Of a DNA stretch of 28,962 bases, positions 24,607-28,897 are shown one piece after another (positions within the stretch are counted from its first letter, which is position 1; each line of letters starts with the position of its first letter). A program made the position numbers and the translations under genes. The stretch is taken from positions 1-28,962 of the IMG/VR virus record IMGVR_UViG_3300027878_000013; one strand, given 5' to 3'. Origin of the DNA: a virus. Under the pieces are notes generated by a model that saw nothing but the letters and a program-made list of their open reading frames with translations, was not told the origin of the DNA and made no database searches.

Positions 24607-25728
24607 CTACGCCTTCGGCGGCTCGATCTGGATGCCGAAGAGATCGAGCTGCACGTAGCGGCGAGGCTTCGCCGGAGGCGCGACCCACGCGAGGAGATCG
24701 AGCTGCCCGGCCGGGCCTGACGCTACGGGCACAGTGACGTGGACGCGAGGCTGAGCGGGCGCGACGGGAGGGGGCATCGGTCCGGGCGACGTCGGCGCGG
24801 GGCCTGACGGGCTCGCCCCTCCGCCAACGACGCGAAGGAACCCCCGACCGCCGGGCAGCTCGCGCGAGGTCGTCGCGGGCGCGCGGTGCGCGAGCGGTTG
24901 CGCCACGGGCTTCTCGGTTACTCCAGCGGCCATTGCTGGGGTGACGCGGAGCGTGCGGACGACGTGCCCGAGGTTGTACCAGGCGTAGTTGAGCGCGACG
25001 GCGGCGCGGTGGTTCTCGATCTTCTTCGAGAAGGCGTAACAGAGGCGCCGGATGCGGCCGATGTGATGGCGCATCGTGCCGTTGTTCCGCTCCACGTAAG
25101 CGGTGCTCGCGCGGTCGAGATCGGGCGTGCCGAAGATCGCCTTCTTGGTGATGAAGGGGTCGCGCGGGGGCTCGTAGCGGTAGTCCTCGCGCCGCCCTCC
25201 GCTGCGGTAGTTCTTCACGGTCTGGGCGTAGTCGATGCTCGGCCCGAAGTTGGCGCCGATGGCCTTGATGTAGGGCGCGAAGCCGTCCGACGTCATCGCG
25301 GGCATGACCACCAAGCGGGCGCGCACGTCGGCCATGAACACGTTCATGCTCGCCTGGTCGCGCTTGCCCACGTGGAACGAGATCACCATGCGGCTCGACG
25401 CGTCCAGCGCGACGAACGTGTACGCCTCGCCGACGTCAGGACCGTCCTTCGCAGGGTCGACGCGCGCCTGCTTCTTCTGCACGTAGGACCAGATCTCGTC
25501 GACCTGGATCATGCTGCACGACAGGTCGCGCACGAGGCGATCGTGAAGGCGCTGAGCACCTGCGCCGAGGGCCAGTGCGAAGCGGCGGATCGTCTTCCGC
25601 TCGACGTCGGTCATGCGCTCGACGGCGCGCTCAGAGTTGCCGTCTACGAGAGCGGCGAGCACGCGAAGACGCTGCTCGGTCGACAGAAGGGACACGCGGG
25701 CCTTGCCTTCTCCGAAGGGCTGGCCCAC
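24607..25728 (-). CDS. IS1-family-like DDE transposase with proline-rich tail
   Basis: The 373-aa minus-strand product has a helix-turn-helix-like start (SERAVERMTDVERKTIRRFALALG, 32-55) and a DDE catalytic core: Asp77 in IQVDEIWSYV, Asp148 in MTSDGFAPY and Glu213 in YVERNNGTMRHHIGRIRRL, the pattern of IS1-type transposases. The rest of the IS1 core, up to LNYAWYNLGHVVRTL, is intact. The last ~90 residues are Pro/Ala/Gly-rich and disordered, with a folded-looking end (PRRYVQLDLFGIQIEPPKA); IS1 transposases end soon after the core. GTG 25728 or GTG 25695 may be the start. I found no convincing terminal inverted repeats or target duplication around it, so it may be a domesticated or decayed element. 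Confidence 0.85.
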   Translation of the reverse strand: MGQPFGEGKARVSLLSTEQRLRVLAALVDGNSERAVERMTDVERKTIRRFALALGAGAQRLHDRLVRDLSCSMIQVDEIWSYVQKKQARVDPAKDGPDVGEAYTFVALDASSRMVISFHVGKRDQASMNVFMADVRARLVVMPAMTSDGFAPYIKAIGANFGPSIDYAQTVKNYRSGGRREDYRYEPPRDPFITKKAIFGTPDLDRASTAYVERNNGTMRHHIGRIRRLCYAFSKKIENHRAAVALNYAWYNLGHVVRTLRVTPAMAAGVTEKPVAQPLAHRAPATTSRELPGGRGFLRVVGGGASPSGPAPTSPGPMPPPVAPAQPRVHVTVPVASGPAGQLDLLAWVAPPAKPRRYVQLDLFGIQIEPPKA

Positions 25729-25775
25729 GCTCCCGACTGCTAGGGCGCGAGGTGGGCAACCGCTTCGAGTTCAGG

Positions 25776-25808
25776 AACCCCGGGAGAGTTGATCGCTCTC
25801 TCGGGGTT
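25776..25808 (+). terminator. Intrinsic-terminator-like hairpin
   Basis: Arms of 13 bp (25776-25788 and 25796-25808, one G-U pair) around ttgatcg are followed by cgtttcgttta on the plus strand. The T-rich side lies to the right, so it would stop rightward transcription from the transposase region before the methyltransferase cluster. Confidence 0.6.
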
Positions 25809-25865
25809 CGTTTCGTTTACTGGCAACAACTATAGCAACGAAACGGCTTGTTCTGCAGGGCGAAT

Positions 25866-26024: not shown

Positions 26025-27074
26025 ATGGCCACGAAGCACAAAACGCGCAAAATTGTAGGGATCGATCTCTTCTGTGGGGCTGGTGGCCTGACGCTCGGAC
26101 TCCGTCGTGCTGGCATTACAATTGTCGCAGGTGTCGACATAGACCCCGACTGTGAGTACCCATTCACCAAGAACAACGGCGCGGTGTTCCTATGTCGAAA
26201 CGTCTACGATCTCAAGGGACCTGAACTAGAAAAACTGTATCCCAAGGGTGCGGTGCGCCTGTTGGCCGGGTGCGCGCCGTGCAAGCCTTTCTCTCCGCTA
26301 AGGCGAGGCTCAGACAACTCGGCCGAAGATGAATGGGGGCTTCTTGGCGAGTTCGGGCGCCTTGTAAGCGAATTGAAGCCTGAGCTAGTGACCATGGAGA
26401 ATGTCGCACGCTTGGCAACCCAGGCCGTCTTCCTTCAGTTTGTGAAAAAGCTAAACGAGCTTGGTTACCATGTCGACTGGGATTCAGTGCATTGCCCCAA
26501 ATTCGGGGTCCCGCAAAATCGGCGACGATTGGTGCTCGTGGCATCGCTTATCGGGCCGGTGTCAGTGCCGCGCGGAAGCCTATCCCCCAAGAACTTCAAA
26601 ACCGTGCGCGACGCGATCGGATCACTCCCCCGGGTGAAGGCGGGCAAGAGCCATCCTTTGGATCCACTGCACGTGGCGCGCTCACTGTCTCCGACAAATC
26701 TCGGGCGCATTCAGGCCTCAAGGCCGGGGGGAACCTGGTTCGACTGGTCCCAGGAGTTGCGCGCGCCGTGCCATCGTGTAGAGACGGGCGAAACCTACGT
26801 GAATGTCTATGCGCGTATGGCCTGGGAGGAGCCTTCACCAACCATCACAACTCTCGCCCACAGCTTCGGCAGCGGTCGTTTCGGCCACCCTGAGCAGGAT
26901 CGCGCCCTCACACTGCGTGAGGCGTCGATCCTGCAAAGTTTTCCACCGAAGTACTGCTTTGTACCACCCGGCGAGCCGGTTTACCTTCGGACCATTGGGC
27001 GGCTCATTGGAAACGCGGTTCCGCCGAAACTTGCTGCTGCTGTCGGCAAGGCACTCATCCAAGCGACATTATAG
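26025..27074 (+). CDS. C5-cytosine DNA methyltransferase
   Basis: The 349-aa product has all main motifs of a complete C5 methyltransferase: motif I VGIDLFCGAGGLTLGL (11-26), motif IV GCAPCKPFSPL with catalytic Cys86 (82-92), motif VI MENVARL (124-130), motif VIII PQNRRRLVLVA (163-173), a target-recognition region, then motif IX REASILQSFPP and motif X IGNAVPPKLAAAVG. It transfers a methyl group to C5 of cytosine at an unknown site. Codon use is clearly less GC-biased than in the phage genes to the left, pointing to separate origin. It converges, six bases apart, on the 27081 gene. It may be a solitary methylase or the modification part of a restriction-modification set with its neighbours. 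Confidence 0.95.
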   Translation: MATKHKTRKIVGIDLFCGAGGLTLGLRRAGITIVAGVDIDPDCEYPFTKNNGAVFLCRNVYDLKGPELEKLYPKGAVRLLAGCAPCKPFSPLRRGSDNSAEDEWGLLGEFGRLVSELKPELVTMENVARLATQAVFLQFVKKLNELGYHVDWDSVHCPKFGVPQNRRRLVLVASLIGPVSVPRGSLSPKNFKTVRDAIGSLPRVKAGKSHPLDPLHVARSLSPTNLGRIQASRPGGTWFDWSQELRAPCHRVETGETYVNVYARMAWEEPSPTITTLAHSFGSGRFGHPEQDRALTLREASILQSFPPKYCFVPPGEPVYLRTIGRLIGNAVPPKLAAAVGKALIQATL

Positions 27075-27080
27075 TGGTCA

Positions 27081-27770
27081 TCAGAATGGATTGAATACGT
27101 GCGGCGGAAGATCAGCGGGAACGACGATGTGCGGGTACCACCCCGAAGGGGCGGACGCATCGCCCCAGTAAATGAGCACGAGAGTAAACCTCTTCGTGGC
27201 CTGTGCCCACCCCACCTCGTCGCCGCTCAACGCTCCACGAATGCGACGTCGCTGCACGTCGACCAGTTTGTTATTCTTGAATGGCCGGACATAGATGGTT
27301 CCTTTGTCGTTGTACTGACCAGCGGTTGCAGTCAGCAACGCCAACAACGCGGCAGTATCCCAGCGGCCAGAGTCGTCGTCACGAATGGGGACGAGTTGCA
27401 CGATGTCTTTGACTACTTGCAACGGAACCTCTTGGAACCGGTCTTCTCGCTCAATCCCGCTGATTACGATGTTGTTCTTTTGAAGGATTCCAAAGATACG
27501 CTCGGTCGAACCAGCCTGAGATGTATCAACAACGTAGTTGGGCAGGATCTGCTTGACGTCTGAGCTGTACACGCGCAGTCCAGCTTCAAGCGCGTTCGGG
27601 CGAGTCGGTCGCGCGCCGTCTGGCTTCAGGATCGCGACGTTGCCGATGTCGCCATTCGTGATCTTCAGGAGCCCCCGCTTCGCAGGCTGGCTCAGCTTCG
27701 CGGAGCTGCTCGCCTTCTTGAGCTTGCTCGGTTTCACGGCATTGCTCTTCGCGACAACCTTGCTCGTCAT
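27081..27770 (-). CDS. Unrecognised 229-aa protein coupled to an SPPY methyltransferase
   Basis: ATG 27770 (MTSKVVAKSN) lies two bases after the stop of the upstream methyltransferase, with a GGAGGGG site that overlaps that gene's end, so the two are translationally linked. The first 35 residues are Lys/Ser-rich. The rest (GDIGNVAILKPDGARPTRP, ILPNYVVDTSQAGSTERIFGILQKNNIVISGIEREDRFQEVPLQVV, TIYVRPFKNNKLVDVQRRRIRGAL, VLIYWGDASAPSGWYPHIVVP) is a mixed alpha/beta protein. I see no PD-(D/E)xK, HNH, GIY-YIG or PLD nuclease motif that would prove it to be a restriction enzyme. By position it is the natural candidate for a cognate endonuclease or regulator of the methylase. Codon use resembles that of the 26025 gene. 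Confidence 0.7.
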   Translation of the reverse strand: MTSKVVAKSNAVKPSKLKKASSSAKLSQPAKRGLLKITNGDIGNVAILKPDGARPTRPNALEAGLRVYSSDVKQILPNYVVDTSQAGSTERIFGILQKNNIVISGIEREDRFQEVPLQVVKDIVQLVPIRDDDSGRWDTAALLALLTATAGQYNDKGTIYVRPFKNNKLVDVQRRRIRGALSGDEVGWAQATKRFTLVLIYWGDASAPSGWYPHIVVPADLPPHVFNPF

Positions 27771-27772
27771 AG

Positions 27773-28897
27773 TCACCCCTCCAGTCGCACGTAAAAATCC
27801 CACTCTTCGATCGGTGCGCCGAGCGGGCGCTGGAATTGATCAGCTTGCCGCTTGCCCATCGATGACAGCCCCGCAGACCGCACCGTAAGCACTCGTAGAT
27901 TGCAACCGGCCCCGGCGAGCGCCTCCTGCATGATGTCCCTGGGCCGCGCCTTCCGGTCGTGAATGCCGCCGAACCGGATCATGAATCGGGCCCCCGGCAA
28001 ACACGCCCGAGCCACGTTGGTCCACACCCCGGCGAGCTGTTCGGCAAACTCGGACGCGGACCCGTGGGAAAGCTGATCGGGGTGCTGATAGGTGGGGGCC
28101 TGTGGGCCGCCCAAGAACCAGTAGCGAAGCCACTGGTCGGGGACATATGTCCTCATTCCATAATAAGGCGGGGAGGTCACCACCATCGAGAACCGGGGCC
28201 CCAGTGCCGTCAGATCAAGCTTGCGGCTATCGCCGCAGAGCACGCTGAACGAAACCTCTGGCGGTGTTGCGCCGAAGTAATGGCGGGCCTTCCGCTCAAC
28301 CAAGTCAGCCAGGCTAACTCGAACGGGTTCGAGTCCTCGTCGTGTCCAGAACCGGACAGCATAATCCGGCTTGGCTCCATAGGTACGCGGCATCTGGTTG
28401 GACAGGTAGGAGGGCGCGCCCTTGTTCCGCGGGCCGTGCAGGAGGCCGAGGATCAGCGCCCGGAGCGCCTTGCGAGCTGGCGACAGGTGATCAACGAGGA
28501 GCGCGGCGCGGACCCTGCACAACTCGTCGAGCGTGAGCGGGTGGTAGCAGTGCGCCCAGAACTCGCCCTCGGGCGGGCTCGCTTCCATCGGACCGGCGAG
28601 GATCTCGGCGCACGCTGCCGCAACGTCTCCGGCGGAGGTGGCGACCATCTTCCCCTCGGTGATCGCCGCGGCAACGGGGTTGCTGTCCACGCCAACGGAG
28701 CCGAGCCCGCGGAGGCGCGCGGCAAAATTGGTGCTGCCACGACCGCAGAACGGATCCAGGACCCAGTCACCAGCACCGAGGCGGCCGAGCTGCCTCGCCG
28801 GCACTGAAAGGGGAAACATGGTGAAATAAGGGCAGATGGCGTTCAGCCGCTCTTGATCACGCTCACCCGTCACCAGCTCGAGTCGACAAGGTTCCAA
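27773..28897 (-). CDS. SPPY-type DNA amino-methyltransferase (probably m4C)
   Basis: The 374-aa minus-strand product has SAM-binding motif I as WVLDPFCGRGSTNFAARLRG (45-64) with the acidic SVGVDSNP (67-74), and catalytic motif IV as VVTSPPYYGMRTY (239-251). TSPPY is typical of N4-cytosine methyltransferases, while DPPY is usual for N6-adenine, so m4C is likely but not proven. The motif I to IV order is that of the beta-class/Trm11-like proteins, with a helical insert (110-200) that may hold the target-recognition part. The only common start in the open frame is TTG 28897; coding-like sequence continues about 18 codons upstream to a TGA, so the true start could be an unusual codon there. It is followed two bases later by the 27081 gene. 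Confidence 0.85.
   Translation of the reverse strand: MEPCRLELVTGERDQERLNAICPYFTMFPLSVPARQLGRLGAGDWVLDPFCGRGSTNFAARLRGLGSVGVDSNPVAAAITEGKMVATSAGDVAAACAEILAGPMEASPPEGEFWAHCYHPLTLDELCRVRAALLVDHLSPARKALRALILGLLHGPRNKGAPSYLSNQMPRTYGAKPDYAVRFWTRRGLEPVRVSLADLVERKARHYFGATPPEVSFSVLCGDSRKLDLTALGPRFSMVVTSPPYYGMRTYVPDQWLRYWFLGGPQAPTYQHPDQLSHGSASEFAEQLAGVWTNVARACLPGARFMIRFGGIHDRKARPRDIMQEALAGAGCNLRVLTVRSAGLSSMGKRQADQFQRPLGAPIEEWDFYVRLEG

Follow-up and report, generated by a model that had tools for sequence, protein, structure and literature searches.

Among the systems described so far that come closest to the locus analysed here are the CglI/NgoAVII-type restriction-modification (R-M) systems, whose motor subunit (H or N) joins a DEAD-Z1 ATPase to a C-terminal domain, Z1C. 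A 2018 NAR paper on the H.CglI motor and its C-terminal domain reportedly describes a unique fold together with an interface between Z1 and the C domain that binds DNA. Z1C is termed a DNA-binding domain in PMC7159879. In CglI and NgoAVII the Z1 gene follows a PLD nuclease gene, and a C5 methyltransferase (MTase) gene is close by; the R protein binds the site but does not cut without the ATP-hydrolysing N protein, and cleavage requires both the PLD protein and an ATPase-active N protein (PMC4267653). The isolated C-domain of N.CglI is a monomer, N dimerisation takes place through Z1, the R protein contacts the DEAD domain of N, and in EMSA the N proteins did not bind short cognate DNA in a specific complex (PMC4267653). 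Z1 relatives found in Psychrobacter, Lactiplantibacillus, Mucilaginibacter and Neisseria share this order of PLD nuclease and Z1 genes and likewise have a C5 MTase in the vicinity, and the PADLOC Helicase_II model matches the Z1 proteins of Rhizobium gallicum and of the N. gonorrhoeae locus. In Nostoc (L003:5508-5987) and Calothrix (L004:5532-5993) a 153-159-aa protein of no known family, 76% identical between the two, is encoded directly upstream of the Z1 ATPase in the place of the PLD nuclease, and is a candidate alternative partner.

The window studied here is the whole 28,962-bp IMG/VR virus record IMGVR_UViG_3300027878_000013, which carries phage-type genes for a terminase large subunit, DnaB and a DNA helicase. 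A sequence-only reading had pointed to a 229-aa protein set between two methyltransferases in this window, linked it to restriction-modification and suggested that it may be a new endonuclease family. The features of the region are as follows.

24607-25728, - strand: IS1-like transposase adjoining the low-GC methyltransferase island (Pfam DDE_Tnp_IS1 2.9e-6; NCBIfam IS1 5e-15)
25775-25809, + strand: terminator-like hairpin (15-bp stem) in the gap that separates the transposase gene from the C5 MTase gene, a consensus match only, such sites occurring in the region at chance level
26025-27074, + strand: C5-cytosine DNA methyltransferase (P0002), 349 aa (Pfam PF00145 DNA_methylase 9.5e-51)
27081-27770, - strand: 229-aa protein (P0001), ATG start directly after the amino-MTase stop
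27084-27668, - strand: Z1C part of the 229-aa protein (residues 35-229), a homologue of the domain at the C-terminus of DEAD-Z1 H (N) subunits
27669-27770, - strand: N-terminal tail, residues 1-34 of the 229-aa protein, without detectable DEAD-Z1 similarity
27773-28897, - strand: TSPPY amino-methyltransferase, 374 aa, TTG start (Pfam N6_N4_Mtase 1.9e-8)

The three-gene layout, a complete C5 MTase converging on an operon of the SPPY MTase and the 229-aa protein, had been read correctly in all ORFs and orientations. The two METHYLTRANSFERASES of this layout, the C5 MTase (26025-27074, +) and the amino-MTase (27773-28897, -), lie on either side of the 229-aa gene, whose stop is separated by 6 bp from that of the convergent C5 MTase gene. 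The overlapping ribosome-binding site was also confirmed, as a GGAGGGG Shine-Dalgarno precedes the ATG of the 229-aa gene (GGAGGGGTGACTATG) within the last codons of the amino-MTase gene. The latter ends in GGAGGGGTGA and the ATG follows 2 bases further on, making coupled translation plausible.

Codon-position GC is consistent with coding sequence in all three genes. The less GC-biased codon use taken earlier as a sign of recent acquisition is most evident in the C5 MTase and 229-aa genes (GC3 0.64 and 0.70), the SPPY MTase at 0.76 lying close to the other predicted genes (0.77-0.93); a local GC dip to 0.55-0.62 across ~25.75-28.0 kb, compared with ~0.70 before, covers the first two genes and the foreign composition is therefore strongest for them. 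Relatives of a neighbouring phage gene, sought in order to reveal an empty site, were not found. Two more DNA methyltransferase genes lie on the contig at 6057-7652 (+) and 16912-17862 (+), which together with the pair described above gives at least four methyltransferase genes in 29 kb of phage contig. A fragment at the contig edge (3-132, +) resembles the end of a C5 MTase, and the other contig end lies 65 bp upstream of the amino-MTase start.

As a lone query the 229-aa protein gave nothing significant in Pfam, NCBIfam, PADLOC, PHROGs or the PDB (phmmer). Scans of genome contigs and viral contigs with the protein, or with two- and three-sequence Z1C alignments, returned no relative, but these scans use strict peptide patterns and absence from them is weak evidence. 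In a tblastn search of plasmids a single match was obtained, to residues 516-707 of a 709-aa "Z1 domain-containing protein" of R. gallicum (33.5% identity, E 5e-22; pairwise E 2e-31), that is, to the last 192 residues, C-terminal to a DEAD-Z1 ATPase. When Z1 proteins are aligned, the 229-aa protein spans the C-terminal domain only, starting just past the Z1 domain and reaching the natural end. A Z1C profile made without P0001 and the R. gallicum protein was run on 14,084 ORF segments and picked up P0001 at E 0.0014, the nearest non-member lying at E 3.0, and comparison of the P0001 and R. gallicum pair with that profile by hhalign gave a probability of 95.3% (E 2.4e-8). The 229-aa protein keeps 18 of the 36 family-conserved positions and the full-length R. 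gallicum protein 17 of 36, so that no excess decay is seen in the former. Its leader, residues 1-34, is rich in Ser, Ala and Lys and carries a net charge of +9; no DEAD-Z1 similarity could be detected in these 34 residues.

The predicted structure agrees with this assignment. AF2 gave no usable model from the sequence alone (pLDDT 31); the model used here comes from a 23-sequence alignment (pLDDT 67, pTM 0.66), and its residues 1-34 are of low confidence. The sole clear match of this model is 6F1S, the C-terminal domain of H.CglI (Foldseek 5.3e-4; VIA Z 10.5 over 130 residues, the next at Z 3.0), a result that supports the sequence comparison and is not an independent proof of it, since 22 of the 23 aligned sequences are themselves Z1C homologues. 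The Z1C family profile also finds 6F1S in the PDB at E 7e-35. Structure prediction and remote-homology search of the product of the gene at 27081, as the sequence-only reading had proposed, have thus identified it: we are highly confident that the 229-aa protein is a Z1C, the C-terminal domain, described as DNA-binding, of a CglI/NgoAVII-type motor (H or N) subunit. A protein left blank by standard family searches is now assigned, and the supposed link to restriction-modification is upheld. The idea of a new endonuclease family fares otherwise, because a clear match to a structural family, named beforehand as speaking against it, is what 6F1S provides.

The protein is the only full-length free Z1C among the loci surveyed. 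Elsewhere, every one of ~40 full-length Z1C domains is fused to a DEAD-Z1 motor (44 viral-contig Z1 loci, plasmid loci and two phage records), the 44 viral-contig loci being biased to fused forms because they were fetched by motor motifs. A tblastn search of plasmids and phages with the Z1C domain alone, which is free of this bias, gave 17 records; the full-length matches among them, where annotated or examined, are all fused to the motor, and one partial match is a 75-codon fragment beside IS elements. A second broken free Z1C copy belongs to a Z1 gene that is broken up over several frames, not far from an intact Z1 system (L119:7249-8486). These two other free copies being broken fragments, decay of Z1 genes is observable elsewhere. 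In the window, DEAD-Z1 traces, frameshifted remains included, were absent from every frame, tblastn of three R proteins gave no match for a PLD-B3 nuclease (R subunit), and no HEPN, GmrSD or GHKL partner was found; nevertheless, only 65 bp of contig precede the operon, so that the absent motor may lie outside. The free protein offers a natural test of a little-studied domain on its own.

The C5 MTase P0002 matches PADLOC DrmMII (1.2e-85) and also MTase_II, and keeps 84 of 86 family-conserved positions. Its motif IV (about 26283, +) reads PCK and not PCQ, the Q being present in 57 of 57 compared relatives; its activity is therefore uncertain, and the enzyme may be altered or inactive. It shares 48% identity with the MTase that adjoins the Z1 gene in R. 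gallicum and 28% with M.NgoAVII, which stands on a separate tree branch and belongs to a different MTase subfamily. The usual 3' neighbour of its viral-contig relatives (46-59% identity) is a 660-670-aa HATPase_c_3 (GHKL) protein, sometimes with Vsr, and the alternative is HEPN MAE_28990 together with GmrSD_N, frequently in convergent orientation. The idea that the 217-245-aa product encoded towards other C5 MTases is the protein studied here was dropped, since it is HEPN MAE_28990. Across these loci (L024-L103) one C5 MTase subfamily is found with interchangeable 3' effector modules intermixed over the MTase tree, which implies that the effectors are often swapped. In this tree the window enzyme falls among GHKL-partnered enzymes at a weakly supported fork. 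As a test of co-inheritance the tree was negative, for the window and R. gallicum enzymes do not group; their shared layout may thus be independent, and descent from one Z1 system is unproven.

The amino-MTase contains the motifs DPFCGRG and TSPPYYGM, its catalytic motifs being intact. TSPPY is typical of m4C enzymes and does not by itself prove the base modified; from its sequence the protein is probably an m4C enzyme. Its homologues are 43-51% identical in viral contigs and up to 50% identical in plasmids. Members of the family elsewhere have as neighbours a ~1,415-aa SF1 helicase, or GmrSD plus HEPN. In L014-L018, L021 and L022 the amino-MTase is commonly convergent with the helicase (AAA_11/AAA_12), which is likely the R-M partner of this MTase family. 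A 231-aa protein after the Allochromatium amino-MTase was tried as a Z1C and dropped, having no profile match. A constant pairing of the 229-aa protein with a methyltransferase, a possibility raised by the sequence-only reading, is not borne out by the fetched flanks of either enzyme: Z1C lies beside none of the 15 amino-MTase relatives, and neither DEAD-Z1 nor Z1C occurs near any of the 80 viral-contig C5 MTase relatives. The only case of a C5 MTase relative beside a Z1C domain is R. gallicum, where the domain is fused to the motor.

We propose, with a probability of about one half, that the locus is a cassette for modification only, in which a DNA-binding remnant has been kept from a Z1 restriction system now dismantled. 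In most relatives Z1C follows a DEAD-Z1 ATPase whose partners are a PLD nuclease and a C5 methyltransferase. Here a Z1 restriction gene may have lost its motor, and the remaining Z1C may have been captured behind the amino-MTase, persisting as a non-catalytic DNA-binding remnant. A free Z1C lacking the motor and the DEAD contact to R, in a window with no R-type nuclease, should neither cut nor drive cutting, and the cassette as it stands would restrict nothing, while the two methyltransferases would mark DNA and so protect the phage or its host. Against a remnant speak the intact ORF, the natural C-terminus, the conserved residues kept and the good Shine-Dalgarno, which could mean continued selection and not decay. 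The same intactness, along with the translational coupling, the +9 basic tail, a start precisely at the domain, conserved residues retained as well as in the full-length relative and a phage context with further methyltransferases, suits a tentative alternative in which the free Z1C is a functional DNA-binding adaptor holding the amino-MTase on DNA, or an anti-restriction decoy coating phage DNA, perhaps in competition with the motor subunit of a Z1 restriction enzyme of the host. We consider these variants together as possible but clearly less probable than a remnant, given that no second genome so arranged was found, that the 15 amino-MTase relatives have no Z1C adjacent, and that a free C-domain cannot be counted on to bind strongly when N proteins form no specific EMSA complex on short cognate DNA (PMC4267653). 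The bolder proposal that the phage itself detached the DNA-binding domain of a restriction motor, and uses it with the basic tail and the two MTases as an anti-restriction protein or DNA-targeting adaptor, appears unlikely to us.

A working R-M system split in two, with the DEAD-Z1 motor and nuclease past the contig end, the C-domain now a separate subunit and the amino-MTase inserted between, would fit a contig that ends 65 bp upstream of the operon with the upstream genes unseen, and a C5 MTase and Z1C arranged as in R. gallicum; we nonetheless judge it rather improbable, as all the other full-length Z1C domains found are fused to a motor and the family of the amino-MTase has different partners. 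The location between methyltransferases and the lack of a Pfam match had favoured a new restriction endonuclease family. The 229-aa protein has no nuclease-family match, its sequence and fold fit the Z1C of a subunit that cannot cut without a separate PLD nuclease, and an endonuclease is unsupported since Z1C is described as a DNA-binding domain, which makes this explanation very improbable. Furthermore, in a C5 MTase subfamily with swappable modules (GHKL ATPase with or without Vsr, GmrSD plus HEPN, Z1), the adjacent gene need not be presumed a classical endonuclease.

Compared with known systems, the cassette preferred here, a modification unit with a Z1C remnant, shares features with several architectures. 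The loci of amino-MTase plus SF1 helicase in R. leguminosarum, Bradyrhizobium and viral contigs (L014-L018) have a homologous MTase (~40-45% identity), but their partner is a convergent helicase and that of the window a co-directional Z1C gene. The cassettes with HEPN (MAE_28990) and GmrSD_N (DUF262) share the C5 MTase subfamily and the order of a convergent 217-245-aa gene and, next to it in the same direction, a gene for 350-390 aa; there the convergent gene is HEPN and the next GmrSD_N, whereas in the window these places are taken by Z1C and an MTase. The CglI/NgoAVII R-M systems resemble the window in the adjacent C5 MTase gene, and differ in that neither a DEAD-Z1 ATPase nor a PLD-B3 nuclease was found up to the ends of the window contig. 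With their H (N) subunits and 6F1S the window Z1C shares sequence family, fold and the PTR-x-N-x-L and W-x-P...P signatures, at ~14-21% identity, but it stands as a gene of its own, has a basic tail and lacks DEAD-Z1. In the Z1 locus of R. gallicum pRgalR602b (L001) the domain ends a 709-aa DEAD-Z1 ATPase, there is no amino-MTase and a Vsr gene is adjacent; this locus nevertheless has the same convergent layout with a 48%-identical C5 MTase, and its domain is 34% identical to that of the window over the whole length, including an 11-residue identical block.
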